Source: Roseivirga seohaensis
GTDB taxonomy: Bacteria > Bacteroidota > Bacteroidia > Cytophagales > Cyclobacteriaceae
Assembly: GCF_001592945.1 (NCBI RefSeq)
Contig: NZ_LRPB01000045.1
Location: 1 to 64,000, forward strand
DNA length: 64,000 nucleotides
Reading direction: 5' to 3'
The position numbers and the translations under genes are program-made. The stretch's first letter is position 1. Every line of letters begins with the position of its first letter. Below the pieces are notes generated by a model. It ran no database searches, had not been told where the DNA came from, and was given only the letters and a program-made list of their open reading frames with translations. This document shows, piece after piece, positions 87 through 50,807 of this stretch.

Positions 87-1060
87 TAACCGATCAACTG
101 CTTCCTCAGTTTTACCAGTTCCTTATCCACCTTCACCAAACCTTTAAGTTGCTCTAGCTTTTCAATGGTCTTTTGAAGAAATTTCTGGTGTGCATCAGAT
201 TCGGGGTGAAATGCTTTGTGTTTCATGGCACTGCGTATTTCGCCCCAGTTTTTAATAAAGGCCTTCGTTTCTTTATCAAAATAGACGTCCATAAACTTCC
301 CCCAAATGTATTCTTGTGCCAATTGATTAGGGTGCAACATGTCCTTTTCATAAAAGCGATAATCCCTCAAATCGTCCATTAATAGCTCATAGGCGGGAAA
401 ATAGTCTACATCATCGGCATAAGTGCTAATCTGATGACAAGCCAGCCTTAGAATGCTTTTGCTCACCATATTCAATTCTAGTGTGTCTTTTACGTGTCGA
501 ATAGGACTGACCGTTAGAATGAATTTCAATTCAGGATTTTGCGTATGAAGCTGTTCTTTCAACAACATAAAAGCACTTGAAATTTCTTCGGAACTTAACA
601 GTCTTTTATTGAATTGGCTTGCAGGAGTTTTATGGCAGTTGGCTACCAGCATTTGTGTCTTTTTTTCTTCATACACCCAAGCCGTACCCAAAGTAACGAT
701 AATGGTAGTTGGTTTCTTTAGCACTTTGGTAAGTCGGTTGCGTTGGCGGTTTATATGAGATTCTAGCTGCTCTTTAGATTTTCCATACAGCTCAGAATGC
801 ACCTTGTAGTTTAGGTGAATTCCATCTCGAACCAAATAACTATCTTCTGGTAATCGAGTTTCATCCAATGCCATTTCTATCAATTCAAAAATGGAAAGGG
901 GATTAAAGATGATACCGAAGGGGTTATACTCAACCTTGAATTTATGCTGAGAGAGTTTCTTCCCAATATTGTCTGCAAAGCAGGAGCCAATCGAAATCAA
1001 TGGATTTGATAACTGTATTTTGTGAGAAGAGGGTTTTGGGTTTAATTCGGTTCGGAACAT
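86..1060 (-). CDS. GSCFA domain-containing protein
   Basis: A protein of about 324 aa carrying the GSCFA signature near its N-terminus (IGSCFADNIG, about residues 25-34). GSCFA is a Bacteroidota-rich family thought to have a GDSL/SGNH-hydrolase-like fold; its substrate is unknown. No signal peptide or membrane segment is visible, so it is probably cytoplasmic. The frame extends two codons further to a TTG at 1066. I chose the ATG at 1060 because a perfect TATCTTTG promoter box lies only 3 bases upstream, inside that extension. The stop codon touches the 7-bp tandem repeat, so no normal terminator is seen downstream. The family call is firm, the biochemical role open. Confidence 0.9.
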   Translation of the reverse strand: MFRTELNPKPSSHKIQLSNPLISIGSCFADNIGKKLSQHKFKVEYNPFGIIFNPLSIFELIEMALDETRLPEDSYLVRDGIHLNYKVHSELYGKSKEQLESHINRQRNRLTKVLKKPTTIIVTLGTAWVYEEKKTQMLVANCHKTPASQFNKRLLSSEEISSAFMLLKEQLHTQNPELKFILTVSPIRHVKDTLELNMVSKSILRLACHQISTYADDVDYFPAYELLMDDLRDYRFYEKDMLHPNQLAQEYIWGKFMDVYFDKETKAFIKNWGEIRSAMKHKAFHPESDAHQKFLQKTIEKLEQLKGLVKVDKELVKLRKQLIG

Positions 1061-1063
1061 GGG

Positions 1064-1071
1064 CAAAGATA
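1064..1071 (-). promoter_or_regulatory. TAnnTTTG promoter box of the GSCFA gene
   Basis: On the minus strand the sequence is TATCTTTG, a perfect match to the Bacteroidota -7 element. It is followed by CCC and then the ATG at 1060. A start site 5-8 bases after the box would fall on or near the start codon, implying a leaderless or nearly leaderless transcript. Confidence 0.65.
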
Positions 1072-1166
1072 ACCAATGTAAGAATGGCTAAAAATAAAAA
1101 ATGGAAGCCCGCTTTAGAGACTCCCATTTACTTGACTATGCACTCTTCTGACAGAAAGAGGTGTTG

Positions 1167-1673
1167 TTATAAGCTAGAAAGTGCTTTTACGATGGCTTGA
1201 GAATCGTCATCCACTTTAGTATCACTTCCAGATAATTTGAAAGCTACTTTTAAACTCATTCGGGCATTCACCAGTTTGCCTCGTTGTTTGCCAGGTATCC
1301 AATCAGGAGACAATTCGAGCATACGAACGGCTTCGGTATCGCAACCTCCACCAATACCTCTAATAACCTGAATGTTCTCTAGCTTTCCTTCGGTAGTCAC
1401 AACAAATGACACAAAAACATTTCCTTCAATTCCTTGGTTTTTAGCTTGTTCTGGATACTTAAGGTTGGTCAAAAGGTGTTTTCTGTAAGCATCTGCTCCA
1501 CCTGGGAAGGTAGGTGACTCTTCTACAATAAGAAATACATCATCTGAATTTTGTACACCAGCAACACCGGTGACTTGGCCAACTTCATCAATCGATTCAA
1601 GGCTGATGTCCTCATCGGAACATGAGAGTGCGGTGAATAGCAACGCAGCAAGTAATAATGTTGATTTTTTCAT
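1167..1673 (-). CDS. TonB C-terminal domain lipoprotein
   Basis: 168 aa. The N-terminus is a lipoprotein signal (hydrophobic run ending TALSC, Cys 18), so the mature protein is probably membrane-anchored in the periplasm. Residues about 50-150 resemble the TonB C-terminal domain seen in Bacteroidota energy-transducer-like proteins: FPGGADAYRKHL, then YPEQAKNQGIEGNVFVSF, and a late WIPGKQRGK stretch. It lacks the N-terminal membrane anchor and proline-rich spacer of a true TonB, so it more likely acts as a periplasmic binding module than as the energy transducer. It stands alone, with its own upstream gap and no obvious partner. Confidence 0.8.
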   Translation of the reverse strand: MKKSTLLLAALLFTALSCSDEDISLESIDEVGQVTGVAGVQNSDDVFLIVEESPTFPGGADAYRKHLLTNLKYPEQAKNQGIEGNVFVSFVVTTEGKLENIQVIRGIGGGCDTEAVRMLELSPDWIPGKQRGKLVNARMSLKVAFKLSGSDTKVDDDSQAIVKALSSL

Positions 1674-1773
1674 AGTAACTAAGTTTTATCCGAAGAAAAC
1701 TATTTTAATAGTTAATAGCAAATAAACTTAGTTGTTTTTAACGAAAGTTATTGAAAAAGAAATTGATAGGGGA

Positions 1774-3336
1774 TTAAGCCTTATCTTCTCTACCACCTAA
1801 ATGCTCGCATTCAATCAAGTTTTGCATACTAATAAAGTCTACTGGCACTTTTTCGTAATTGTAGATTTGTCGAAGAGTAGTGGTGTAATTATTATCGCCC
1901 ATACTCATGTCAACATCCGTCATTTCTAATTGACAAGGATGTTCGTAGCCGCAAGCGTGCGTAATCTCTAAGATTTCCTTCCTTAGCGTTTTGGCGTAAT
2001 TATAAAAGCGTTCCGATTTAAGGGTAGGGTCAATTCCTGCTTGTAGCCATTTGTTTTGGGTAGCCACGCCTGCGGGGCAGGTATTGGTATGGCACGAGAG
2101 CGCCTGAATACAGCCAATAGAAAGCATAGCTTCTCTGGCAATGTTAATTAAATCGGCTCCCATACTAAAGGCCATTAATGCGCTAGATGGAAAGCCTAAT
2201 TTGCCAGACGCAATAAACACTACACGATCAGTAAGGTTTTTACGCTTAAACATTTGATACACCTGTGAAAAACCAAATACAAATGGTAATGAAACGTGGT
2301 TCGCAAAGGCTGGAGGTGCAGCTCCTGTACCGCCTTCACCGCCATCAATCGAGATGAAATCAGGACCAATATTACGTTCTACCATCAGGTCTGTCAGTTC
2401 TTCCCACATGTCTAATTTTCCAACGGCAGACTTAAAACCAACAGGTAGGCCTGTGTTATTGGCAATGTCTTCTATAAAATCTAGTAACTCAGGAATGGTG
2501 CTAAAGGCAGTATGGGTCGATGGCGAAATCACATCTTTTCCCATTGGTACGTGTCTGATTTCTGAAATTTCTTTGGTGATTTTGGATGCAGGTAAAACAC
2601 CTCCTTTACCGGGCTTAGCACCCTGAGAAAGCTTTACTTCTATGGCCCTAATGTATTTGTAATCGTTTACCAATTTCACCATTTTATCCATATCGAAATT
2701 GCCTTCCGGGGTTCTTACCCCAAAGTAACCGGTGCCAAATTGGAAAACGATGTCAGCCCCATGCTGGTGATGATAAGACAAAGAGCCTTCACCAGTATTG
2801 TGATAACAGCCTGCCTTTTTTGCTCCTTTGTTCAACGATTCTATGGCCTTTGCCGATAAGGAGCCAAAACTCATGGCCGAAATATTAACGATGGATTTAG
2901 GTCGAAATGGCCTTTTTCTTTTGTTATAAAGCCCCATTACTTTGGCGCAAGGAATTAAGTCTACCTGAGTAACATTAGGGTGATTTGGTGCTGGTTTATA
3001 GGGCAACATGGTGGGGTTGATAAACACAAAACCCGGAGAGGCTTGGTCTTGATCTGTGCCAAATCCAGTATAGTTATTTTGCTTTTTTGAAGAGGCATAC
3101 ACCCACGTGCGCTGACTTCTGTTGAAAGGAAGTTCTTCTCGGTTATTGGCTACTATGTACTGTCGTAGTTCTGGGCCAATTTTTTCGAGCATATACCGAA
3201 TATGCCCAATGATAGGAAAGTTATGCGTAATGGTGTGTTTACGCTGAATAATATCTCTTAAGAAAAGGATGAATAAGAAAAACAAAACCCAGCCCCACCA
3301 AGGTACTGTAGCTAGAAATGATTGAATTGACTCCAT
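1774..3336 (-). CDS. FMN-binding glutamate synthase-family protein
   Basis: About 520 aa. One N-terminal membrane helix (about residues 8-27) precedes a domain like the FMN/FeS centre of the glutamate synthase large subunit. Visible marks are GGEGGTGAAPPAF in the FMN barrel and C-x5-C-x4-C in CIQALSCHTNTCPAG, the spacing used by the [3Fe-4S] cluster of GltB. There is no glutaminase (GATase) domain and no GltD beside it, so it is a stand-alone, membrane-tethered relative of unknown substrate, not a complete GOGAT. The frame extends to a TTG at 3363; the ATG at 3336 fits better. It is monocistronic, with gaps on both sides. Confidence 0.88.
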   Translation of the reverse strand: MESIQSFLATVPWWGWVLFFLFILFLRDIIQRKHTITHNFPIIGHIRYMLEKIGPELRQYIVANNREELPFNRSQRTWVYASSKKQNNYTGFGTDQDQASPGFVFINPTMLPYKPAPNHPNVTQVDLIPCAKVMGLYNKRKRPFRPKSIVNISAMSFGSLSAKAIESLNKGAKKAGCYHNTGEGSLSYHHQHGADIVFQFGTGYFGVRTPEGNFDMDKMVKLVNDYKYIRAIEVKLSQGAKPGKGGVLPASKITKEISEIRHVPMGKDVISPSTHTAFSTIPELLDFIEDIANNTGLPVGFKSAVGKLDMWEELTDLMVERNIGPDFISIDGGEGGTGAAPPAFANHVSLPFVFGFSQVYQMFKRKNLTDRVVFIASGKLGFPSSALMAFSMGADLINIAREAMLSIGCIQALSCHTNTCPAGVATQNKWLQAGIDPTLKSERFYNYAKTLRKEILEITHACGYEHPCQLEMTDVDMSMGDNNYTTTLRQIYNYEKVPVDFISMQNLIECEHLGGREDKA

Positions 3337-28387: not shown

Positions 28388-28403
28388 TGGTTCAAAATTG
28401 GCC
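28388..28403 (+). promoter_or_regulatory. candidate sigma-54 promoter of the permease operon
   Basis: TGGTTCAAAATTGGCC carries GG and GC at the exact -24/-12 spacing; the -12 element is TGGC, not TTGC. Predicted start about 28414, leaving a 17-base leader to the ATG at 28431. Support comes from the adjacent NtrC-family regulator and upstream palindrome. Confidence 0.5.
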
Positions 28404-28430
28404 ATTGGGGCATTGTCAAATACTCAAACT

Positions 28431-30812
28431 ATGATTAAGAACTACTTCAAACTCGCTATTCGTAACCTCTGGAAAAACAAGCTGGTAACTGGCACCAACC
28501 TGATTGGTCTTACTTTAGGGATTTCATGCAGCCTACTTCTATTGCTTTATGTGCAGTATGAGTACGCAATGGATGATTTCATTCCTGAAAGAGAGAATAC
28601 GTATTTTCTATATGGTACTCAAACTGGTGTAAATGCAAGAAAAGTGGGGCTTTCCATTGAGAATGACTACAAAGATTTATCGAGCAATTATGCAGGAATT
28701 AAAGAAACTGCGATAATTAGAAATAACAGCAGTGATTTTTACCCAGAAAATAACTCGACCAAGAAACTGAACATTGATTATTGGTATGCGAGCAGCAACT
28801 TCTTCGAGTTTTTTGGTTTCCCTTTAATCGAAGGAAATGCAGCCCAAGTACTGAATGACCCTTCTTCCATTGTAATTACAGAAAGCACCGCCATTGCCCT
28901 GTTCGGTACTTCCAATGCCATTGGAAAAACAGTAACCATGGCTGGGGTTTCGTCTGACAAAGCCTTAGTGGTGCGTGGAATTGCGGCTGACGTTAAGAAT
29001 TCACATATCAAATTTAAAGCGATTATTCCTTGGGAAATGACTTTTCCTGATGGATCGCAACCCGCTAAAGGCTTTGCTTACTCGCTTTACACCTATGTGA
29101 AAACCACGCCAGGAGCCAGTATTGATGAAGTTCGAGCTTTAAAGAATGAAAGGTTAGCCAAGGAACCCGGTTTTGATGGAGACTTTAGCTATGAGTTTCT
29201 ACCCGTAACAGATATGTATTTAAAGTCTGGGGACATTCAGTTTATGTCTTTCGCATCGGGGAGTGCTTCGGCCATTCAAACGCTCTTATTTATTGCCATT
29301 ATCATTTTGTTGGTGGCTTGTATCAACTACATCAATTTACAGACTGCAAAAGGAGCGAGGCGATCGATGGAGGTGGGTGTGCGCAAAGTAATGGGAGCGC
29401 ACAGAGGGCAGCTGATCCGTCAGTTTTTAGGCGAAGCCGTTTTGATTACGATCATCTCCGCGATATTCTCCATTTTGTTGATTGATGTAGGCTTATCGTC
29501 ATTCAATCAGCTGACGGGTAAAGAATTTACCACGGCTACTTTAATGAATGAAGGTTTGCTACCTGTTTTATTGGGGGTTGTTCTTTTTACTTCTTTGTTT
29601 TCAGGGCTTTACCCTGCATTAGTGCTGTCGTCATTCCAGCCTTCTCAGGCACTTAAAGCTTCGGCACGTGAATCTTTAAAAGGAGGAAGGGCACGTAAAA
29701 CATTGATGTTTGTTCAGTTTGTGATATCTATATTTTTGATCGCTGTTACCGTAATCACATTTAGACAAAATGAATTTTTGCACAATAAGGATTTAGGTTT
29801 CAACAAAGATCAAGTCATTACTTTCAGTGTTTCCACCAAAAATTTAAGTAGAAATTATAGGTCCTTCAAAAGTGAAATTGATGCCTATCCGGGTGTTGTA
29901 GCATCATCGGTGAGCACCGATGTATTGGGAAGCGGCTATACAAATAACTCTGGGCCGATGATGTCCAAGACCAATCCGGACTTGAGCGCAGTCACCACCA
30001 TTTTTGGAGTAGACTTCGACTTTATCAAAACCTATGATTTGGAGTTGGTCAACGGTAGAGATTTCGATATCCAATCTTCATCAGACTCCACTGCACTTAT
30101 CGTAAACGAAGCTTTTATCGCTCAACTCGGCTTAGATAATCCGATGGAAGACGAAGTGACGCTTTATAACCCCAATAACAGGGGAATGAAGATTATAGGC
30201 GTAGTGAAAGATTTCCACTTTCAAAAACTTCATCAGAAAATCAGTCCGGTAGCTTTTAGAATTGCCAACAGAAATTTATGGAATCTATCGGTGAACATTA
30301 AGGCAGAAAACATTACTGAAACCCTCGCATTCTTAGAAAGTAAATGGGCCGAATTTGAGCCAGATCAACCATTTACCTACAGCTTTATCAATGATGAGTT
30401 TGCGCGGTTCTATGCCAACGAAACCAGATTATTGAAGGCCATTAGCTTCTTTTCTATTGTGAGCATTGTACTCACCGCTTTAGGCTTATTCGGCATGGTC
30501 ACTTTCGTGATTGAGCGAAAATTGAAAGAAATAGGTATTCGTAAAGTTTTAGGGGCTTCTGGTACTAATATCAACTTCATTATTCTAAAGGAGTTTTTGG
30601 TTGTGTTGGCCATTGCGGCTTGCATTTCAATTCCTTTGGCGCTTGGTGCTGGAAAAGAGTGGCTTTCAAATTTTGCTTACACTACCAATATTGGAATAAT
30701 GCCCTTCGTGGTCGCGTTGGTTATTTCTCTAGTGATTGTACTGATTACCGTTGGTTTACAGGCCATTAAAGCCGCTAAAGCCAACCCAATAAATGCTTTG
30801 AAAAGCGAATAA
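28431..30812 (+). CDS. FtsX/MacB-type ABC transporter permease 1
   Basis: 793 aa from the ATG at 28431; an upstream TTG extension overlaps the promoter and is rejected. The ADOP-like layout is membrane helix, periplasmic MacB-PCD domain (about 45-265), three helices with an FtsX domain, a second periplasmic domain (about 440-650) and three C-terminal helices. GVRKVMGAHRGQLIRQF and GIRKVLGASGTNI are the paired FtsX signatures. These permeases work with a MacB/LolD-type ATPase, none of which is nearby. It is first of three tandem paralogues and diverges most from the other two. Confidence 0.9.
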   Translation: MIKNYFKLAIRNLWKNKLVTGTNLIGLTLGISCSLLLLLYVQYEYAMDDFIPERENTYFLYGTQTGVNARKVGLSIENDYKDLSSNYAGIKETAIIRNNSSDFYPENNSTKKLNIDYWYASSNFFEFFGFPLIEGNAAQVLNDPSSIVITESTAIALFGTSNAIGKTVTMAGVSSDKALVVRGIAADVKNSHIKFKAIIPWEMTFPDGSQPAKGFAYSLYTYVKTTPGASIDEVRALKNERLAKEPGFDGDFSYEFLPVTDMYLKSGDIQFMSFASGSASAIQTLLFIAIIILLVACINYINLQTAKGARRSMEVGVRKVMGAHRGQLIRQFLGEAVLITIISAIFSILLIDVGLSSFNQLTGKEFTTATLMNEGLLPVLLGVVLFTSLFSGLYPALVLSSFQPSQALKASARESLKGGRARKTLMFVQFVISIFLIAVTVITFRQNEFLHNKDLGFNKDQVITFSVSTKNLSRNYRSFKSEIDAYPGVVASSVSTDVLGSGYTNNSGPMMSKTNPDLSAVTTIFGVDFDFIKTYDLELVNGRDFDIQSSSDSTALIVNEAFIAQLGLDNPMEDEVTLYNPNNRGMKIIGVVKDFHFQKLHQKISPVAFRIANRNLWNLSVNIKAENITETLAFLESKWAEFEPDQPFTYSFINDEFARFYANETRLLKAISFFSIVSIVLTALGLFGMVTFVIERKLKEIGIRKVLGASGTNINFIILKEFLVVLAIAACISIPLALGAGKEWLSNFAYTTNIGIMPFVVALVISLVIVLITVGLQAIKAAKANPINALKSE

Positions 30813-30832
30813 AAACTTCAAAACAGCAAAAA

Positions 30833-33244
30833 ATGTTCAAGAACTATTTCAAAATAGCCATACGAACCCTCTGGAGAAGTAAAGGCTACGCTTTTATCAA
30901 TATCCTTGGCTTGGCCATTGGTATCACGGGCGCTACATTGTTGCTAACTTATGTCAATAGCGAACGAAGTTTCGATAAGTTTCATACCAACTATGAACGC
31001 ATTGTTCGCCCCGTTTTTATTCAAGGAGGTGGAGCTGAAGGTGATCGATATTTTAGCCGGGTACCAGCCATATATGCAAGAACGTTGGTTGATCAACTGC
31101 CAGAAGTAGAAGAAGAAGTTACCTTGACAAGGCTTAGCAGCCAATTCAATGCTAACGTAAACAACGTTAATTTCACAGAAACTAATTACTTCATTACCAC
31201 TTCTGATGTATTCTCTGTTTTTGACTTTGAATTGCTTCAAGGTAATGAGAAAACGGCTTTGGATGAACCGTTTTCAATGGTGGTGACACAGTCGCAAGCA
31301 TTGAAGTTCTTCGGTACAGAAGATGTAATGGGTAAAACCGTAGATGCCTCAAGCTATTTGGGCAACTTCAAAATCACAGGAGTAATGAAAGACCTCCCTC
31401 GGAACTCCCATCTTGAAATAGGCATTTTATTAGGTCAAGAAACCTTAAATGGTACGAACACTGCTGACCTCTATGGTTCTTGGTCGAGATTTTCTTCCTA
31501 TTCCTATTTGCTGCTTAAAGAGAATACGGAGTTAACCACTCTTTCAAATAAGGCCAACAAAATCGCTAAAGACAACATGCCAAGTGAGGTAGTGGCATCT
31601 AGCAGTTTCATGTTTCAACCTTTAGAGGATATTCATTTTCATTCTGCCAATATTGAAGGAGATATAGCCGCCTTTAAAGGAGAGGAAACTTACAGTGTCA
31701 TTTTTACAGTCATCGCTATTTTCTTGATTGTTATAGCAGCGGTCAATTACATGAACTTAGCTACCTCAAAGGCAGTATTTAGGGCAAAAGAAATTGGAAT
31801 TAGAAAAGTAGTAGGGGCTATTAGGCAACAACTCATCTTTCAGTTTCTGATTGAATCGTTCATGATTGCCTTTTTTGCACTGGTTATATCGGTGGGTATT
31901 ACAGACCTTTCAATGCCGTTTTTCAATGAATTAACAGGACGTACATTTGAATTCAACTGGAGTACACTTTTGGAGTATTTGCCATTATTGATGGGCATTA
32001 CTTTAGCCATCGGTTTGCTCTCAGGTATATATCCAGCACTTTTTATGACCAAATTTAAACCTGTTTCGGTGCTGAAAGGTGAAAATGTAACGGGTAGTGC
32101 TTTCAATTTGAGAAAAGCTCTTGTAGTGTTTCAGTTTGTGCTTTCTACTGTATTCGTAATTTCTACTTTGGTGGTATCAGACCAAATGAATTTCATTCGT
32201 GAAAAAGATTTGGGCTTTGATAAGGAAAACCTTTTGGTAATTGATATTAATAATGGTTCAATACGGCCAGTTTTTAAAACTATGCGGTATGAGTTAGAGC
32301 AGATTCCTGGTGTACAAGAGGTGGCTGTAGCTTCTAGAATTCCTGGAGAATGGAAGAACATTAATGAGGTAGAAGTAAGTTCTTACGATCAAGAGGGTGA
32401 GATTAGAGACTCTGTAAAGAGCTATTATATGAGTTTTGACCCCAATATGCTCTCTACTTTTAATATAAAGTTGAGAGCAGGTGAATTTTTTAGTGGGAAT
32501 GACCAAAGTGATAGTACAAAGATTTTAATCAATGAAACTGCAGCCAAAAAATTTGGCCTTGAGAACCCAGTAGGCACTGTAGTGCAGCTTGCAGGAAGGG
32601 GTAAGGCAAACTATACTATTATTGGTGTGCTTGAAGATTTTAATTTCCAATCACTACATACCAGCTTATCTCCTTTGGTTATTGGTGCATGGAACAATCC
32701 CAATGCAGTCATTGATTACTTTATACTGAAGACATCGGGAAACCCAAAACCTATTATCGATGCCGCTGGTTTGGTTCATTCAAAGTTCGATACTCGAACC
32801 GTAATGGATTATCATTTCCTTGACAATCAATTAGAGGCTTTTTACGAAACCGAAAGAGAGGCCAATGTGATTTTCATAGCGGGGGCGAGTTTGAGTATTT
32901 TTATTGCATGTTTAGGTCTTTTTGGCTTAGCCTCTTTTACAATCCAAAAAAGAGTAAAGGAATTAGGAATTAGAAAAATACTTGGCTCAAGTCAGTGGGG
33001 AATCTTCTTTTTATTATCAAGTTCATTCGCAAAGCAAATACTGCTCTCTTTTGTGATTGCTGCACCAATTGCTTATTACATTATGAACAATTGGCTTGAA
33101 AATTTTGAATACAGAGTTGGTATTGGAGTAGGCGCATTTTTGCTTGCTGGATGTTTTACTTTTCTAGTTTCTATGCTCACTATAAGCTACAGAACTATAA
33201 AGGCTGTCAATTCCAATCCAATTGACTCTCTCAGGACTGAATAA
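30833..33244 (+). CDS. FtsX/MacB-type ABC transporter permease 2
   Basis: 803 aa, same two-half layout as the upstream gene. N-terminal YAFINILGLAIGITGATLLLTYV is the first helix; FtsX signatures are GIRKVVGAIRQQLIFQFL (about 325) and GIRKILGSSQWGIFF (about 715). It begins 20 bases after permease 1, so it is in the same operon. It is clearly closer to permease 3, sharing an exact 38-base DNA block over the first helix. The substrate is unknown; related systems export small peptides, drugs or lipoproteins. Confidence 0.9.
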   Translation: MFKNYFKIAIRTLWRSKGYAFINILGLAIGITGATLLLTYVNSERSFDKFHTNYERIVRPVFIQGGGAEGDRYFSRVPAIYARTLVDQLPEVEEEVTLTRLSSQFNANVNNVNFTETNYFITTSDVFSVFDFELLQGNEKTALDEPFSMVVTQSQALKFFGTEDVMGKTVDASSYLGNFKITGVMKDLPRNSHLEIGILLGQETLNGTNTADLYGSWSRFSSYSYLLLKENTELTTLSNKANKIAKDNMPSEVVASSSFMFQPLEDIHFHSANIEGDIAAFKGEETYSVIFTVIAIFLIVIAAVNYMNLATSKAVFRAKEIGIRKVVGAIRQQLIFQFLIESFMIAFFALVISVGITDLSMPFFNELTGRTFEFNWSTLLEYLPLLMGITLAIGLLSGIYPALFMTKFKPVSVLKGENVTGSAFNLRKALVVFQFVLSTVFVISTLVVSDQMNFIREKDLGFDKENLLVIDINNGSIRPVFKTMRYELEQIPGVQEVAVASRIPGEWKNINEVEVSSYDQEGEIRDSVKSYYMSFDPNMLSTFNIKLRAGEFFSGNDQSDSTKILINETAAKKFGLENPVGTVVQLAGRGKANYTIIGVLEDFNFQSLHTSLSPLVIGAWNNPNAVIDYFILKTSGNPKPIIDAAGLVHSKFDTRTVMDYHFLDNQLEAFYETEREANVIFIAGASLSIFIACLGLFGLASFTIQKRVKELGIRKILGSSQWGIFFLLSSSFAKQILLSFVIAAPIAYYIMNNWLENFEYRVGIGVGAFLLAGCFTFLVSMLTISYRTIKAVNSNPIDSLRTE
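30884..30921 (+). repeat. 38-bp exact direct repeat within permease genes, copy 1
   Basis: GGCTACGCTTTTATCAATAT and the 18 bases after it recur exactly at 33314-33351 over the first-helix codons of the next permease. Flanking synonymous sites differ, so the block looks like recent gene conversion rather than selection on protein alone. Confidence 0.85.
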
Positions 33245-33262
33245 ACTCAAAAACAACACATC

Positions 33263-35668
33263 ATGCTCAAAAACTATTTTAAAATTGCCTTTCGTACCCT
33301 TGCCAGAAGTAAGGGCTACGCTTTTATCAATATCCTTGGCTTGGCCATTGGAATCACTGGGGCCACACTTTTACTCACCTATGTAAAAGATGAAACTTCT
33401 TTTGATCAGTTTCACAGCAAAGCAGATGAGATTGTGCGAATAATTGTGGTGGATAAAACTGGTGAAGCACCAAGAAGATTTGCCGTTAATGCTGCTGTTT
33501 TTGCTTCTACTTTGGTGGAAGAATTGCCAGAGGTAACCAGTGCCACTACCTTGTTTATGCGAGGTGGACATATGAATTTCACCATAGATGGGGTGCGTTT
33601 TGCACAACGAAATTACTTCATCACCGATCCATCTTTCTTCGAAGTATTTGATTTTGAATTTTTGGAAGGAGATAGGGTTACAGCATTGGCTGAACCAAAT
33701 TCTGTGGTGTTGAGTGAAAATGAAGCCATTCGTTATTTTGGCACAACCGATGCGCTAGGCAAAACCATTACCTCGCCATTTGCCGGAGAATTTAAAGTAA
33801 CAGGCATTTCGAAGAATACTCCCGCCAATTCGCACATTAAATTTGACGTGCTGATTTCGCAAAATTATTCTGACCCGCAGTGGCAACAGATGCTCACCAG
33901 TTGGGAACAAATTGGGCCTAGTTCTTATTTAGTGCTAACCAAGGGAGCGGACATTGCAGATGTGCAAAAGAAAGCCGAAGCCATTGCCAATGAAAGAATG
34001 GGGGTGCCAATGGCAGATATGGTTGATTTTGAACTGCAATCCCTTAGTGATATCCATTTCGAATCGGCCAATATTGAGCAAAGCATAGCTCAAACCAGTG
34101 GTAATAAGAGTTATATCCTTATTTTCATTTCTATTGCTATATTCTTGGTGGTCATTGCCTCGGTAAACTATATGAATTTGGCTACTTCTAGGGCTGTTTT
34201 TAGGGCCAAAGAAATTGGAATTAGAAAGGTAGTAGGAGCCGTTAAAAAACAGTTGGTCACTCAATTTTTAATGGAGTCTTTGCTAATCACATTAATCTCC
34301 CTCATTGTCTCCATTGGTCTTACCGATCTCAGTATGCCTTTCTTTAATGATCTTACTCAAAAGAATTTCGACTTTAGCTGGGCTACTTTAGGAGAATATT
34401 TACCGATGCTTCTTGGGCTTACGGCTATTATTGCTTTACTCTCTGGAATTTACCCTTCCTTTTTCATGACCCGTTTTAAAACAGTAGATGTACTGAAAGG
34501 AGAACGCAAAACCAGCAGTCCGTTTGCTTTGCGCAAAATATTGGTGATTGCTCAATTTGCCCTTTCCATTATCATGATCATTTCAACCATTGTGGTAACC
34601 CAGCAAATGAACTATATCAACGATAAGAACCTTGGTTTTGATGATAGTAATTTGGTAGTGATTGATATTAACAATGGAAACGTGAGGGCCAACTTTAAAG
34701 CCATGCGAACCGAATTGGCCAATGTACCTGGAGTCGAGTCGGTATCTGTTTCAACCCGAGTACCAGGTGAATGGAAAACCATTAATGAAATTACAGCAGT
34801 CACAAATAATGTTAATCAACAGACTCGGGATTCGGTGGATGTTTTCTATATGGGCTTTGATGAAAATCTGATTGAGACTTTCGGTTTTAAATTAAAGGAC
34901 GGAGTGAGTTTTGCTGGCGTTGACGCTACTGACAGTACTAAAATATTATTGAATGAGACAGCTGCGGCCACTTTTGGTTTAGAGAACCCAATTGGGGAAA
35001 CCATCGAGTTGACTTCACAGGGAAGAAGTTTACGGGTGCAGATCATTGGTGTGGTGGAAGATTTTAACTTTCAGTCACTGCACAATAAAGTAGCACCAAT
35101 GATTCTTGGTTATTGGAATAACCCTGCGGGTACTATAGATTACTTTACAGTAAAAGCTTCGGGCAATATGGCAAATGTGGTAGCGGGGCTTACGGAAGTG
35201 CACAATAAGTTCGATCAAGCTACGGCCATGGAATCACACTTTTTAGACAGTCAATTGGCGAATTTTTATCAGGCAGAGCAGCAGGCCAGTGTAATTTACA
35301 AGGTAGGAGCAGGGCTCAGTATTTTCGTGGCATGTTTGGGCTTATTTGGTTTGGCTTCTTTTACGGTTGAAAAACGAATCAAGGAATTGGGTATCCGAAA
35401 AGTGTTAGGTGCAAGCCAGTGGAGTTTGTTCTATTTACTTTCTTCCACTTTCGCGAAGCAAGTATTCTTGGCCTTTATCATTGCTAGCCCCTTTGCATTT
35501 TGGATTATGAAAAATTGGCTGAGTGGATTTGTCTATCATGTAAACATCAGCCCAATTGCGTTTATTGTTGCGGGATTAATGACCATGGTGATTGCTTTAT
35601 TGACAGTGAGCTATAGATCAATTCTCGCCACCAAATCCAATCCAGTAGATTCGCTAAGAAGCGAGTAA
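33263..35668 (+). CDS. FtsX/MacB-type ABC transporter permease 3
   Basis: 801 aa, very similar in order and sequence to permease 2 (YAFINILGLAIGITGATLLLTYV, GIRKVVGAVKKQLVTQFL, GIRKVLGASQWSLFYLL). It starts 18 bases after permease 2 and ends the operon before a perfect 36-bp terminator palindrome. Retaining two close copies suggests either a heterodimer or paralogues with different periplasmic domains. No ATPase or HlyD-type adaptor is encoded here. Confidence 0.9.
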   Translation: MLKNYFKIAFRTLARSKGYAFINILGLAIGITGATLLLTYVKDETSFDQFHSKADEIVRIIVVDKTGEAPRRFAVNAAVFASTLVEELPEVTSATTLFMRGGHMNFTIDGVRFAQRNYFITDPSFFEVFDFEFLEGDRVTALAEPNSVVLSENEAIRYFGTTDALGKTITSPFAGEFKVTGISKNTPANSHIKFDVLISQNYSDPQWQQMLTSWEQIGPSSYLVLTKGADIADVQKKAEAIANERMGVPMADMVDFELQSLSDIHFESANIEQSIAQTSGNKSYILIFISIAIFLVVIASVNYMNLATSRAVFRAKEIGIRKVVGAVKKQLVTQFLMESLLITLISLIVSIGLTDLSMPFFNDLTQKNFDFSWATLGEYLPMLLGLTAIIALLSGIYPSFFMTRFKTVDVLKGERKTSSPFALRKILVIAQFALSIIMIISTIVVTQQMNYINDKNLGFDDSNLVVIDINNGNVRANFKAMRTELANVPGVESVSVSTRVPGEWKTINEITAVTNNVNQQTRDSVDVFYMGFDENLIETFGFKLKDGVSFAGVDATDSTKILLNETAAATFGLENPIGETIELTSQGRSLRVQIIGVVEDFNFQSLHNKVAPMILGYWNNPAGTIDYFTVKASGNMANVVAGLTEVHNKFDQATAMESHFLDSQLANFYQAEQQASVIYKVGAGLSIFVACLGLFGLASFTVEKRIKELGIRKVLGASQWSLFYLLSSTFAKQVFLAFIIASPFAFWIMKNWLSGFVYHVNISPIAFIVAGLMTMVIALLTVSYRSILATKSNPVDSLRSE
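33314..33351 (+). repeat. 38-bp exact direct repeat within permease genes, copy 2
   Basis: Partner of 30884-30921, identical over 38 bases. It lies in the signal/first-helix region of permease 3. Confidence 0.85.
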
Positions 35669-35747: not shown

Positions 35748-37295
35748 CTACCAATCTATTGGTCTGTAGTCTTTTAAAAATTTACCACACCAATGTTTTC
35801 CGGTGTTAATTCCGTCAAACAAAGGATCTAAAACTCGGGCGGCTCCATCTACAATATCCAGCGGTGGCTGAAAGTCGTGAACCTCTTGTTTCAACTTAGA
35901 AAGCTCAGCAGGATCTTCATCGGTTACCCAACCCGTATCTACAGCATTCATGTAAATTCCATCCTTCGCAAAGTCAGAAGCAGAAGTATGCGTCATCATG
36001 TTCAAGGCAGCTTTGGCCATGTTCGTATGCGGATGTCGGTCTTCTTTATGGAAACGGTGGAACTTGCCTTCCATGGCCGAAACGTTAATAATATGTTTCA
36101 TGCCCGTGTTTTCTTTTCGCATTAAATTCGAAAGTCGGTTACACAAAACAAAGGGCGCTACGGCATTTACGAGCTGTACTTCCACCATTTCAGGTGTTTC
36201 AATTTGACCCAACCTTAAGCGCCAGCTGTTGGTCTTTCTTAGGTCAACTTGTTGCAAATCAGCATCTAATTGCCCTTCAGGGAATACTTCTTTGGTAGGA
36301 AGCGAATTATCGAAACTGTATGGGATTTGAGACAGCTGAGCAGAAGCCCTGATTCCAATACCTGGTTCTGGTGCATGCCAAGTCACTGAAAGGGCATTGT
36401 TCTTCTTGTCTGAAACACCCGAAGAAAGCGTTCTCAATTCCTGCAAGCAGTAATGATGATCAGCCAAAAGGTCTTTCACATAAGGCGTGAGTTTTTCAAT
36501 TGGTTTTTCTTCATTCTCCATCAGGTGATGGTAGAAACCAGAAGGTCTTCTTACGGTTTGTGCCGCATTATTGATTAAAATATCGAGTCGATCGTATTTC
36601 TGCTCTATGTAATTACAGAAGATTTCCACACTCGGAATATGCCTTAAATCTAAACCGTGAATCTTTAGACGATGTCCCCAATCGGCATAATCTGCTTCTT
36701 TCGAATAACGAATGGCAGAATCAACAGGGAATCGGGTAGTGGCCACTACGGTAGCGCCAGCCCTTAAGAGCATTAAAGTAATGTGATAACCAATCTTAAG
36801 TCTGGAACCAGTAACCAAGGCTACTTGGCCGGTAAGGTCTGCGGTTTGAAATCTTTTGGCATAATTAAAGTCACCGCAATCTTTGCACATGGCATCGTAG
36901 AAATGGTGCACTTTAGTGTACACCGCTTTGCACACATAGCAGTTTCTAGGTGATTCCAGTTCTGGGGTATCCAGCTTTTCTGGTTCAACCAAAGAAATGA
37001 GTTTTGGCGCTTCAAAAACAATTTGCTCTCTGGCACTTCGAATACCAGTGGTTTTTCGGGCGTGTTTATCGCGCTCAATCATTTTGCGTTTGGCGGCTTT
37101 TTTAGCGTCCTTTCTGCGCCTTGCAAATTCTTCTCGGTCGGGACGGGTTAATTTTCCAGCCGCCATAAATAAGGCTACTCGTTGTTCCTCAGGCATTTCA
37201 AAGAGTTGGTTGGTATCGCCAATAAGGCGTTCCATTACTTCAATACAGCGCTGTATTTCTTCCTGACTTAGCTGTTTATCGGCCTCTTCTTTCAT
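35748..37295 (-). CDS. SDR-like protein with N-terminal zinc ribbon
   Basis: 515 aa. Residues 1-100 are charged and helical. Then comes a four-cysteine zinc ribbon (NCYVC ... MCKDC, about 117-140), followed by a Rossmann SDR domain ([30 protein letters not shown]). The SDR catalytic YxxxK is not kept: in [11 protein letters not shown] the Tyr position is Thr424 before Lys428, so classical SDR catalysis is doubtful. A large insert separates the two halves of the SDR domain. Similar zinc-ribbon SDR-like proteins exist in bacteria and plants; function unknown. A TACCTTTG promoter lies 27 bases upstream. Confidence 0.83.
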
Positions 37296-47730: not shown

Positions 47731-47808
47731 CAATTTACCATCACTCTAAGTTTGAATATTGAAAAGGGAAATCGTGAGAGTCTGTCTGTTCGGAGTGGTA
47801 GTCGCTTA
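47731..47808. repeat. dispersed repeat, copy A
   Basis: About 78 bases starting CAATTTACC, with the core GAGAGTCTGTCTGTT, similar to 50731-50807 at about 84% over the first 70 bases by hand alignment. It lies between the HD gene and DUF1648, and its last 3 bases are the DUF1648 stop codon. Confidence 0.85.
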
Positions 47809-48339
47809 CTTAATCTTCGTTTTACCCAGCTTTATGGATTTTATGATGTAGTAGGTCATTGGAATAAAGATCATTCCTAATGTTAAAGGTAAGAACCAAA
47901 CCCCTAAGCCTTCAGCCGTTCCGTTAATATTCTGTATAGTTCTAAATACAATCAGGCTAAAGATTATCACTAACACTAACTTCAACACACGTAATAACCG
48001 GGTAGCCATTGTATAGTTTTTTAGGGCATTTTCTTCAGTTAATACTTCAGTAGGATAGTTAAAAACATGAGGATATTTGTTCAGAATCGTCATGCCAATG
48101 TACAGCACCGAAGCAACGATTGGTAATGTTAACATGTTCCATTTGTTTCCAAAGCCATCTGCTTTTCCAGCTGCATTAAAGTGAATGGGTATGGTTTCAG
48201 GTAAATCCTGAAAATTAATGAATACTAAAACCCAAACTCCAATCAAGATCAGCCAGCCAAAAAGCTCCATGGCAACATCTAAACCCGACAATTTAAGTCT
48301 CAATATTGGGCGATCGTTTTTATCCTTTTTTGAATTCAA
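47806..48339 (-). CDS. DUF1648 membrane protein
   Basis: 177 aa with about four membrane helices. The DUF1648 signature is LPETIPIHFNAAGKADGFGNK (about 51-71) after the first helix. DUF1648 proteins occur with SdpI-like immunity or general membrane functions; the role here is unknown. The likely start is a TTG overlapping the stop of the PETase-like gene (TTGA); no ATG exists until residue 24, which would cut into helix 1. It is co-transcribed with that hydrolase. Its stop lies in repeat copy A. Confidence 0.8.
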   Translation of the reverse strand: MNSKKDKNDRPILRLKLSGLDVAMELFGWLILIGVWVLVFINFQDLPETIPIHFNAAGKADGFGNKWNMLTLPIVASVLYIGMTILNKYPHVFNYPTEVLTEENALKNYTMATRLLRVLKLVLVIIFSLIVFRTIQNINGTAEGLGVWFLPLTLGMIFIPMTYYIIKSIKLGKTKIK

Positions 48340-49196
48340 TTTAAATTACTTTGATGTTTTGAAGCTGTTGAGTTTTGATTAAGTGCATTGGTACTTAGTA
48401 ATTGACTATAACAGCCGTTTCCACGTACAAACAGTTCGAGCCAAGCGTAGGCTACATTACCTAAATCTCCGTTTCCTGTGTTTGGATAAAGCGGAGTAGA
48501 ATGATTTCCTTCTGTAATTTCAAAAAGCATTTTTTTAGTGTTTGAAGGAGTGTAGTCATAATGCACATTCGAATGACTTGCTGGAGGGGCTGTAGGGTCA
48601 ACTTGTCCGCTTAAGATCAATACTGGTGCGGTATGGTTTAAATCCGTTTCCACAAGTGTTTTAGGGTATAACCAGGGTGTTATCGCAATCACGGCTTTCA
48701 CTCTTTTATCGAGCGCTGCGGCTAATTGTGCGCCACCGCCTCCCATAGACCAGCCGCCCACAGCGATGTTTTCAGCGTCTAGCTTATGGAATAAGGGCGA
48801 ATCCGTTCTATTATTTTCTTGTCGAATGGTTTCCATACCATCTAGAAGTGCTTTGGCCCTTAATGCGGGGCTGTCGGTTAGAGCGTTTGTGCCAATTGTC
48901 ATGGTAACATAACCACGTTCGGCAAGGTACCTTGCCCATAAGCTTACAGACCTTTGTGTGGCTTTGTAGCCAGGTACCAATACGATACTTTTTAAATTCC
49001 CTTCGCTATTGGTTGGGAAGTACAAAGTGGCACCATCATAATCATCACCGTTTCGTAATCCATCAGCTTCATACAGTGAATCCAAGGAGAATGGTGTGTA
49101 GGTTGAAACACTTTTTACTGTTATAGATTCGCATTGTCCGTAAACAGAATGCGATAACACACATATTAACAATACTAATAAGGTTCTGACTTTCAT
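48336..49196 (-). CDS. secreted PETase/cutinase-like alpha/beta hydrolase
   Basis: 286 aa with a signal peptide (MKVRTLLVLLICVLSHSVYG). The fold and order match polyester hydrolases: LVPGYKATQRS (oxyanion Tyr77), GGWSMGGGG (nucleophile Ser150, Trp149, Met151), ITPWLYP (Trp175), GQVDPTAPP (Asp200) and EGNHSTP (His232, Ser233). Trp149 and Ser233 correspond to the positions where Ideonella PETase differs from actinobacterial cutinases (Trp159, Ser238). The extra disulfide of PETase is absent. No T9SS C-terminal sorting domain is seen; only three cysteines (12, 22, 262). The natural substrate is unknown; ester or polyester hydrolysis is inferred. ATG start. Confidence 0.85.
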   Translation of the reverse strand: MKVRTLLVLLICVLSHSVYGQCESITVKSVSTYTPFSLDSLYEADGLRNGDDYDGATLYFPTNSEGNLKSIVLVPGYKATQRSVSLWARYLAERGYVTMTIGTNALTDSPALRAKALLDGMETIRQENNRTDSPLFHKLDAENIAVGGWSMGGGGAQLAAALDKRVKAVIAITPWLYPKTLVETDLNHTAPVLILSGQVDPTAPPASHSNVHYDYTPSNTKKMLFEITEGNHSTPLYPNTGNGDLGNVAYAWLELFVRGNGCYSQLLSTNALNQNSTASKHQSNLN

Positions 49197-49563
49197 AATA
49201 GGTGATGGTTAATGGTATTTTTGATTAGGTGTAATGAAGATAAAAATACTTTTTACAAAATTATTTCTGTAGCCATGCTATCCCTCAAATTTTAACCTTT
49301 TTTATTTAAAGGGTAGTCATCACATTCCGTGGCAACCAGACTGATTTTAAAGGAAGTATTTGGGAAGTACATAATTGATTTTGGATGGCAAATATATTGG
49401 ACTTTTTAACCTGTAGCTTCTTTCACCACTAGTGTGGAATTCACTCTACTGTTTTTTATTGATATGTTGATCAAAATCGCATATAGACTTAATTGAGAGG
49501 CCCTTATAGAACTGGCATAGTTCTTTCAAAAGGCTAGGTAACTTTTAATTAAAATATAGAAAC
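49197..49563. other. 367-bp gene-free spacer
   Basis: Between the divergent PETase-like and DUF2383 genes. AT-rich; no ORF or strong hairpin. A -24/-12-like TGGCAT-N5-TTTCA at 49513-49528 lacks the essential GC at -12, so it is not called as a promoter. Confidence 0.6.
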
Positions 49564-50013
49564 ATGAATTATACAGAAAAATTAGTCGACAAATTAAATG
49601 ATGTTTTAAGACGTTCATATGATGCGATTCAAGGGTATGAAAACGCTATTGATGACATGAACGATGCCCAATTGAAAAACTTCTTTAAAAACCAAGTAAT
49701 GGAAAGAACTAGGTTTGCTGGAGAATTGGCTTCTGAAATAACGGCTTTAGGTGGAGAGCCAGTAACTGAGAGCAGCTTTAAAGCAGCTTTACACAGGGCA
49801 TGGATGGATTTGAAATCTTCAATAGCCTCTAATAACGCAGAAAAAGTTTTGCAGGAGTGTATTCGCGGAGAAGAAACGGCTAGTGAAGACTATAAAGACA
49901 TTTTAGAAAGTGATCTTTCGCTTCCGCCAAGTGTAACTAACATGCTAAGAAGCCACAAAGCCAGTATTGACGCAACAGTAGTTAAGCTGAAAATGATGGA
50001 AAAAGTAGCTTAA
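49564..50013 (+). CDS. DUF2383/PA2169-family four-helix-bundle protein
   Basis: 149 aa, all helical, ferritin-like: MNYTEKLVDKLNDVLRRSYDAIQGYENAI in helix 1, EITALGGEPVTESSF between helices, GEETASEDYKDIL in helix 3. PA2169-type proteins are typically stress- or stationary-phase induced; function unclear. It has its own terminator and no operon partner. Confidence 0.86.
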   Translation: MNYTEKLVDKLNDVLRRSYDAIQGYENAIDDMNDAQLKNFFKNQVMERTRFAGELASEITALGGEPVTESSFKAALHRAWMDLKSSIASNNAEKVLQECIRGEETASEDYKDILESDLSLPPSVTNMLRSHKASIDATVVKLKMMEKVA

Positions 50014-50171: not shown

Positions 50172-50645
50172 TTACATTATAAGAAAGGCTAAATCAGCTA
50201 AGGTAAGGGTCTGCATAACGAAAATTAGTGCACTCATTTTTCTTCCATGGCGATAAGCAAACCCCATAACCACGAGCACAAGCAATGGAAGGATAAGACC
50301 AGAATACCTCCTCAAAGAATCCGTGTGTATACTTTCATCTTCGCTTAGTTGATAGCGATTAACTTCTTTAAATATGCGAGAAAGACGGTAGTTCACAGTA
50401 TCACCTTCATTAACTGTTTTTGCAAAGTCTTCCGACACAGAAAAATCGTGTTGTCCAGTAGTTAGCTTGAATGAATAATGATAGTTCTGGGCGGCATTGT
50501 AATACTGTTGGCGTTCGGCTTGTACTTTTATCACCTGATCTGTAAAGGATTTTCCGGGTAGCATAAAGTCCGTAATAATTACCAAGGCAATCAATATGAA
50601 TAGACTGTATAAAAAGGGGCGCAGCTTAAATGTAGACTTGTTCAT
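50172..50645 (-). CDS. two-helix membrane hypothetical protein
   Basis: 157 aa from the ATG at 50645 (a TTG two codons upstream is less likely). One N-terminal membrane helix (about 10-28), a periplasmic domain of about 85 residues rich in Tyr and Gln, then one or two C-terminal helices (about 115-157). No family recognised. It is monocistronic. Confidence 0.6.
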   Translation of the reverse strand: MNKSTFKLRPFLYSLFILIALVIITDFMLPGKSFTDQVIKVQAERQQYYNAAQNYHYSFKLTTGQHDFSVSEDFAKTVNEGDTVNYRLSRIFKEVNRYQLSEDESIHTDSLRRYSGLILPLLVLVVMGFAYRHGRKMSALIFVMQTLTLADLAFLIM

Positions 50646-50730
50646 TGGCAAGCCCTAAATTAACAAAGCTTTTGGCCTTTGTGACATAATAAGAGAATTG
50701 GTTTTTCACCGCAAAGAACGCAGAATTCTA

Positions 50731-50807
50731 CAATTTACCGTCACTCTGAGGTTGAAGCTTGAAAAGCGAAACCGCGAGAGTCTGTCTGTTTGGAGGGGGA
50801 GTGCTTA
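50731..50807. repeat. dispersed repeat, copy B
   Basis: Second copy of the repeat at 47731, with the shared GAGAGTCTGTCTGTT core. It sits in the spacer after the transketolase terminator, and no ORF crosses it. Confidence 0.85.

Follow-up and report, generated by a model that had tools for sequence, protein, structure and literature searches.

Here, we describe a genuine PETase relative in a 64,000-nucleotide stretch of DNA from the marine bacterium Roseivirga seohaensis (the window), which by its sequence is nearer to known Bacteroidota enzymes than to the Ideonella enzyme and sits in an uncharacterised Bacteroidota subclade with a Tyr-Met-Trp aromatic subsite. This adds to the Bacteroidota PETases a subclade in which the subsite type of IsPETase and LCC is found on a PET30-like scaffold. 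The hydrolase belongs to the family, carries its motif residues, lacks the C-terminal secretion tail and overlaps the next gene, and the pair of genes stands at two different genomic sites. We consider it probable that the enzyme is a promiscuous, probably periplasmic PF12740 alpha/beta serine esterase of the Bacteroidota lineage to which PET30 belongs, with small or oligomeric esters as its substrates, and PET hydrolysis is an unproven candidate function.

The coding sequence is a minus-strand open reading frame at 48336-49196 (ATG start, 286 aa), exactly where a preliminary description of this DNA had put it. It matches Pfam PF12740 (PETase) with 160.6 bits (E 6e-47; curated cut-off 28), and its top match among PDB sequences is 7pzj (278 bits, E 5e-82; runner-up 139 bits), which is PET30 of Kaistella jeonii (PMC8767016). 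The PETase-type blocks named in the preliminary description (VPGY, GWSMGGGG, TPW, VDPTAP and NHST) are all there and, judged by these scores, the resemblance to the family is not due to chance. Homology to the BHET hydrolase BdeA (NCBIfam NF051441) is detectable at 130.2 bits but does not reach the equivalog level, and with a cut-off of 520 a BdeA equivalog was rejected. The R. seohaensis genome (4.15 Mb, 48 contigs) contains a single match to the hydrolase at E ≤ 0.001, and an arbitrary non-gene stretch of the window (36000-36302) gave no family match.

The active site was read from an alignment of the hydrolase with 46 other Bacteroidota rows (47 in total) and four PDB rows, among them 8otu (PET44 of Alkalilimnicola ehrlichii) and 7cwq, a DLH domain-containing protein reported as BurPL (PMC10080609). 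The distant relatives came from separate searches, and a peptide-pattern search with the hydrolase reaches close relatives only. The predicted triad Ser150-Asp200-His232 is invariant across the 47 Bacteroidota rows, and GxSxG is present. On the minus strand, the nucleophile elbow GWSMG holds the Trp149-Ser150-Met151 codons (48744-48752), Asp200, the catalytic acid, is encoded at 48597-48599, and His232-Ser233 (48498-48503) align with IsPETase His237-Ser238. Two further minus-strand codons specify Cys22 (49131-49133), which is Cys in all 45 of the 47 rows that reach this position, and its possible disulfide partner Cys262 (48411-48413), which is invariant in the 47 rows.

Tyr77 (48966-48968, minus strand), Met151 and Trp175 (48672-48674, minus strand) fall on IsPETase positions 87, 161 and 185. 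Of the 46 rows with a residue at position 87, 19 have Tyr there together with the Tyr-Met-Trp motif, and two subclades account for 18 of these. The Bacteroidota candidates of Zhang et al. have Phe-Met-(Trp/Tyr/Ala), plus one Trp-Met-Tyr, and the same source gives Tyr-Met-Trp as the motif of IsPETase and LCC (PMC8767016, Table 3). The motif is not new to the phylum, given that PET93 and PET94 carry it (PMC13188925). It also predicts little about activity by itself, since PET30 variants changed to Tyr, Trp or both were no longer active on BHET and PET (PMC8767016).

The preliminary description had read Trp149 and Ser233 as Ideonella-type residues that set IsPETase apart from cutinases. The residues do align with IsPETase Trp159 and Ser238, but their value as a hallmark is weak in this phylum. 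Of the 47 Bacteroidota rows, 35 have Trp at position 159, seven Phe, four His and one Tyr, and Trp also stands there in each of the three proteobacterial PDB rows of the alignment. At position 238, Ser occurs in 21 rows, Asp in nine, Gly in eight, Asn in three and other residues in six. In the hydrolase's own subclade, the three Roseivirga rows have Ser at this position, but the nearest relatives outside the genus have Asn (L005-L007) or Tyr (L008). Trp is thus usual in Bacteroidota, Ser comes and goes, and the pair alone is no sign of Ideonella-type ancestry there. Both residues can nonetheless matter, given that the W159H and S238F substitutions strongly reduced the activity of IsPETase (Joo et al., PMC5785972).

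We think it highly improbable that the hydrolase is a type IIb, IsPETase-like enzyme with an Ideonella-style subsite II. What distinguishes type II PETases is an extended loop together with one more disulfide; type IIb also has conserved subsite II residues, the Trp/Ser pair among them (Joo et al., PMC5785972). The window protein has the Trp/Ser pair and the extended loop, in that its beta8-alpha6 loop aligns without gaps to that of an IsPETase variant, with differing residues and in a comparison made without any type I row. The additional disulfide is absent, with G197 and T234 aligned to the active-site pair C203-C239 of IsPETase. The S214/I218 pair, reported as unique to IsPETase (PMC10080609), is replaced by H208/H212, the His at position 218 recurring in 46 of the 47 Bacteroidota rows, and Leu236 takes the position of Asn241. 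The tree sets the hydrolase apart from the Ideonella group. Membership in that group was hence rejected on the tree, the lacking disulfide and the lacking S214/I218 pair.

The tree comprises 50 rows (L070 was left out as too short, and the midpoint root serves for drawing only). The 47 Bacteroidota rows, PET30 included, form one clade with support of 100/100, and the three proteobacterial rows fall outside it. Within it, the three Roseivirga rows and L005-L008 make up a subclade (100/99) separate from that of PET30 (100/92); L008 is one of the long branches of the tree. Among named records, the closest proteins are those of Roseivirga ehrenbergii KMM 6017 (97% identity) and R. echinicomitans KMM 6058 (82%), and over the core the hydrolase is 50.9% identical to PET30 and 34.3-35.5% to the three proteobacterial PETases. 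Two AlphaFold2 models were built from 10-row alignments, one of the whole protein (pLDDT 74) and one of residues 21-270, the mature form (pLDDT 79). In comparison with IsPETase and Bacteroidota PET hydrolases, which the preliminary description had proposed as a check, Foldseek ranked PET30 (7pzj) first for both models (TMq 0.73 whole, 0.80 mature) and an IsPETase entry second. The loop after Asp200 is weakly predicted, with a mean pLDDT of 56 for the 201-210 block of the mature model and values below 50 for residues 199-210 of the whole-protein model.

PET30, the characterised enzyme closest to the hydrolase, shares with it the triad, Trp/Ser at 159/238, the lack of an active-site disulfide and a signal peptide, which is a probable one in the hydrolase, and the same holds for PET27 of Aequorivita sp., which is known here from PMC8767016 alone. 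TPA release by PET30 is 38 times below that by PET27 (PMC8767016). Both enzymes differ from it at the subsite, where Tyr77/Trp175 stand against Phe/Tyr in PET30 and Phe/Trp in PET27, so that the Phe typical of these two enzymes at the first position is missing. The window enzyme further differs from both in lacking the T9SS PorC tail and the C262-C285 disulfide and in the overlap of its gene with a DUF1648 gene, and relative to PET30 it has five extra residues after Trp175 and sits in another subclade. Likeness to IsPETase covers the family, the triad, the Tyr-Met-Trp subsite I, Trp/Ser in subsite II and the loop length, but identity is only 35% (to the engineered variant 8d1d), S214/I218, C203-C239 and Asn241 are lacking, and the clade is a different one. 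The dienelactone hydrolases PET93 and PET94, of Maribacter and Arenibacter, are likewise Bacteroidota proteins with Tyr-Met-Trp and without a PorC tail, but they have 433-434 aa, are called novel scaffolds and stand in no operon (PMC13188925), in a comparison by published description.

The hydrolase had been described as secreted, and this holds as far as an export signal is concerned. By eye, its hydrophobic N-terminus, ending in VYG-QC, has the look of a Sec signal peptide, probably residues 1-20 (49137-49196, minus strand) with cleavage at G20|Q21. A type IX sorting tail is absent, however, so 'secreted' may mean export to the periplasm only. At the C-terminal end (48336-48341, minus strand; the last Asn codon and the stop), relatives run on with Cys and a tail. 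Past position 264 the hydrolase has 22 residues, compared with at least 81 in 40 of the 47 rows, and the short-ended rows number seven, namely the three Roseivirga proteins, the plus-strand row of L071, L005, L007 and L006, the last of which breaks off with its contig. The T9SS tail family TIGR04183 matches 29 of the 47 rows at E ≤ 0.01 and gives no match to the hydrolase at E up to 1. The R. seohaensis genome has 27 TIGR04183 matches, and the 26 above the cut-off indicate that T9SS cargo is plentiful there and that the tail is missing nonetheless. Tail-less PET30 retained its activity (PMC8767016, section 16), which means that tail loss is no argument against catalysis. The C262-C285 pair of PET30 has lost both sides in the three Roseivirga proteins, with Ser or Leu at one position. 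From the missing T9SS tail, the hydrolase is probably periplasmic, although it may still leave the cell via vesicles or lysis. Tailed and tail-less relatives offer a natural comparison that makes the site of action and the natural role testable.

Among eight rows checked singly, four match TIGR04183, one of them (L049) just below the cut-off, and three from another subclade have a sub-threshold NF041540 'GC-type dockerin' tail instead (L053 1462-2577, plus; L054 1192-2307, minus; L057 805-1917, plus); in the 47-row scan NF041540 matches seven rows. The plus-strand row of L071 has no C-terminal domain match, no tail and no visible remnant downstream. L071 (contig G1324:C133) carries two PETase-family genes, at 275-1162 (plus) and 1189-2304 (minus), one tailed and one not, and the tail-less gene is present in L052 too.

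Stops just ahead of the tail in two relatives could suggest that the lost tail is a step towards a pseudogene. In L007 (5838-6125) an in-frame TAA comes before a TIGR04183 domain that can still be read (39.9 bits; cut-off 23), and in L005 (5865-6017) an in-frame TAG comes before 49 codons, which resemble a sorting-domain remnant by eye but were rejected as one because they match no family. L005 and L007 are metagenome bins, so these stops could be sequence errors, and repeated tail loss is unproven. The tail-less end of the Roseivirga hydrolase is seen in three genomes, and these retain an intact catalytic domain (82% and 97% identical to the protein of the window over its length), all catalytic residues and the overlapping next gene. 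A decaying gene is hence very unlikely.

In the mechanism proposed from the PETase literature, Ser150, activated by His232 and Asp200, would attack the ester carbonyl, with the backbone amides of Tyr77 and Met151 as the oxyanion hole. An aromatic or hydrophobic acyl group would be clamped by Tyr77 and Trp175 beside Trp149, and water would free the acid. The putative Sec signal would carry the protein over the inner membrane and, without a T9SS tail, it would most likely remain in the periplasm, co-transcribed with the DUF1648 membrane protein; its substrates would be small or oligomeric esters, and its activity on polyesters would be low and promiscuous. Activity on PCL, BHET and Impranil is common to PET27-PET30 (PMC8767016, section 16). 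Given the missing secretion tail, the enzyme may act on small esters inside the cell envelope and not on plastic.

A true extracellular PET/PBAT hydrolase, acting on plastic or a natural polyester and exported without a T9SS tail, is in our judgement unlikely. Its Tyr-Met-Trp subsite is that of IsPETase and LCC (PMC8767016, Table 3), and the marine flavobacterial PET93 and PET94 act on PET with this subsite and without PorC (PMC13188925); these, however, are proteins of 433-434 aa described as novel scaffolds, and changing PET30 towards Tyr/Trp abolished its BHET and PET activity (PMC8767016). The R. seohaensis genome gave no match to the tannase/MHETase family, in a search in which the control matched nowhere either. 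In a marine culture grown on ecovio FT, a compostable polyester, a Roseivirga MAG accounted for 23% of the free-living fraction, but this Roseivirga was undetected on the film or in the biofilm (PMC10734441). A free-living occurrence fits the small-ester role, by analogy with a strain that is not tied to the gene, and the available text of PMC10734441 draws no link between a PETase and Roseivirga; 'Roseivirga' is absent from the main text of PMC8215760.

Of the coupling to a DUF1648 gene that had been described, the overlap was borne out. The partner (47806-48339, minus strand; 177 aa, Pfam E 3e-14), a membrane protein with about four hydrophobic segments, overlaps the hydrolase stop to start, through TTGA in the window and ATGA in R. 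echinicomitans. Titles and opening lines of abstracts in the literature gave nothing on DUF1648/SdpI in Bacteroidetes. DUF1648 relatives occur in five of the 19 Roseivirga genomes, with 99, 90 and 80% identity where the hydrolase is present and 36 and 33% elsewhere. In R. echinicomitans the DUF1648 match contains a TAA, yet the gene reads through 170 codons without a stop when started at its own ATG.

The unit is patchily distributed. With a threshold of E 1e-10, three of the 19 genomes of the genus contain the hydrolase; the same three are the only ones among 291 genomes drawn from the order, and across 395 drawn from the phylum it is found in the R. seohaensis genome, with one weak partial match besides (28% identity, residues 86-233). 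Searches at E 1e-20 around two relatives gave 15 of 397 genomes for the family to which L009's genome belongs and 21 of 399 for the order to which L007's genome belongs, each count including the centre genome. The nearest relatives outside Roseivirga are labelled Flavobacteriaceae, Crocinitomicaceae or unclassified Bacteroidota. Patchy distribution and these labels together point to a horizontal gain. Carriage on plasmids was rejected, with five plasmid matches, all below 60% identity and none from Bacteroidota, in a search from which records close to the R. seohaensis genome were possibly left out.

In the window the pair adjoins an HD-domain gene, whereas in R. echinicomitans it lies about 205 kb from that gene on the same contig, and at the empty site the HD gene directly neighbours a membrane-protein gene (window 50172-50651). 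The segment shared with the other site in R. echinicomitans (47838-49315, minus strand; 78% identical) reaches from some 120 bp ahead of the hydrolase gene almost to the end of the DUF1648 gene. A gene for a DUF2383 ferritin-like protein (49564-50013, plus strand) adjoins the unit here and in R. ehrenbergii and did not turn up in the stretches of R. echinicomitans that were inspected (L004, L025 and L074). One intergenic repeat copy lies at the junction of the unit and the HD gene (47732-47795, minus strand) and a second, oriented alike, lies at the opposite side of the block (50728-50804, minus strand). Repeats on both sides could have mediated the insertion of the hydrolase; at the empty site of R. 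echinicomitans none was found between the flanking genes, and two copies lie upstream.

More tentatively, a surface polyester hydrolase may have been repurposed as a periplasmic ester hydrolase, with the tail lost more than once in the subclade and the Roseivirga DUF1648 unit moving between sites; we regard this scenario as possible but doubtful. If true, this would mean that a PETase fold has naturally changed its place of work, with a possible BHETase- or MHETase-like job and a membrane partner.

The repeat is an interspersed intergenic element of Roseivirga of 64-86 bp, with further copies in L003 (2655-2737, 2881-2966, 3389-3470 and 6402-6461) and L074 (590-675 and 762-830). Elsewhere in the window, 28398-35668 (plus strand) encodes three MacB_PCD/FtsX-type proteins in a row, each about 800 aa long.
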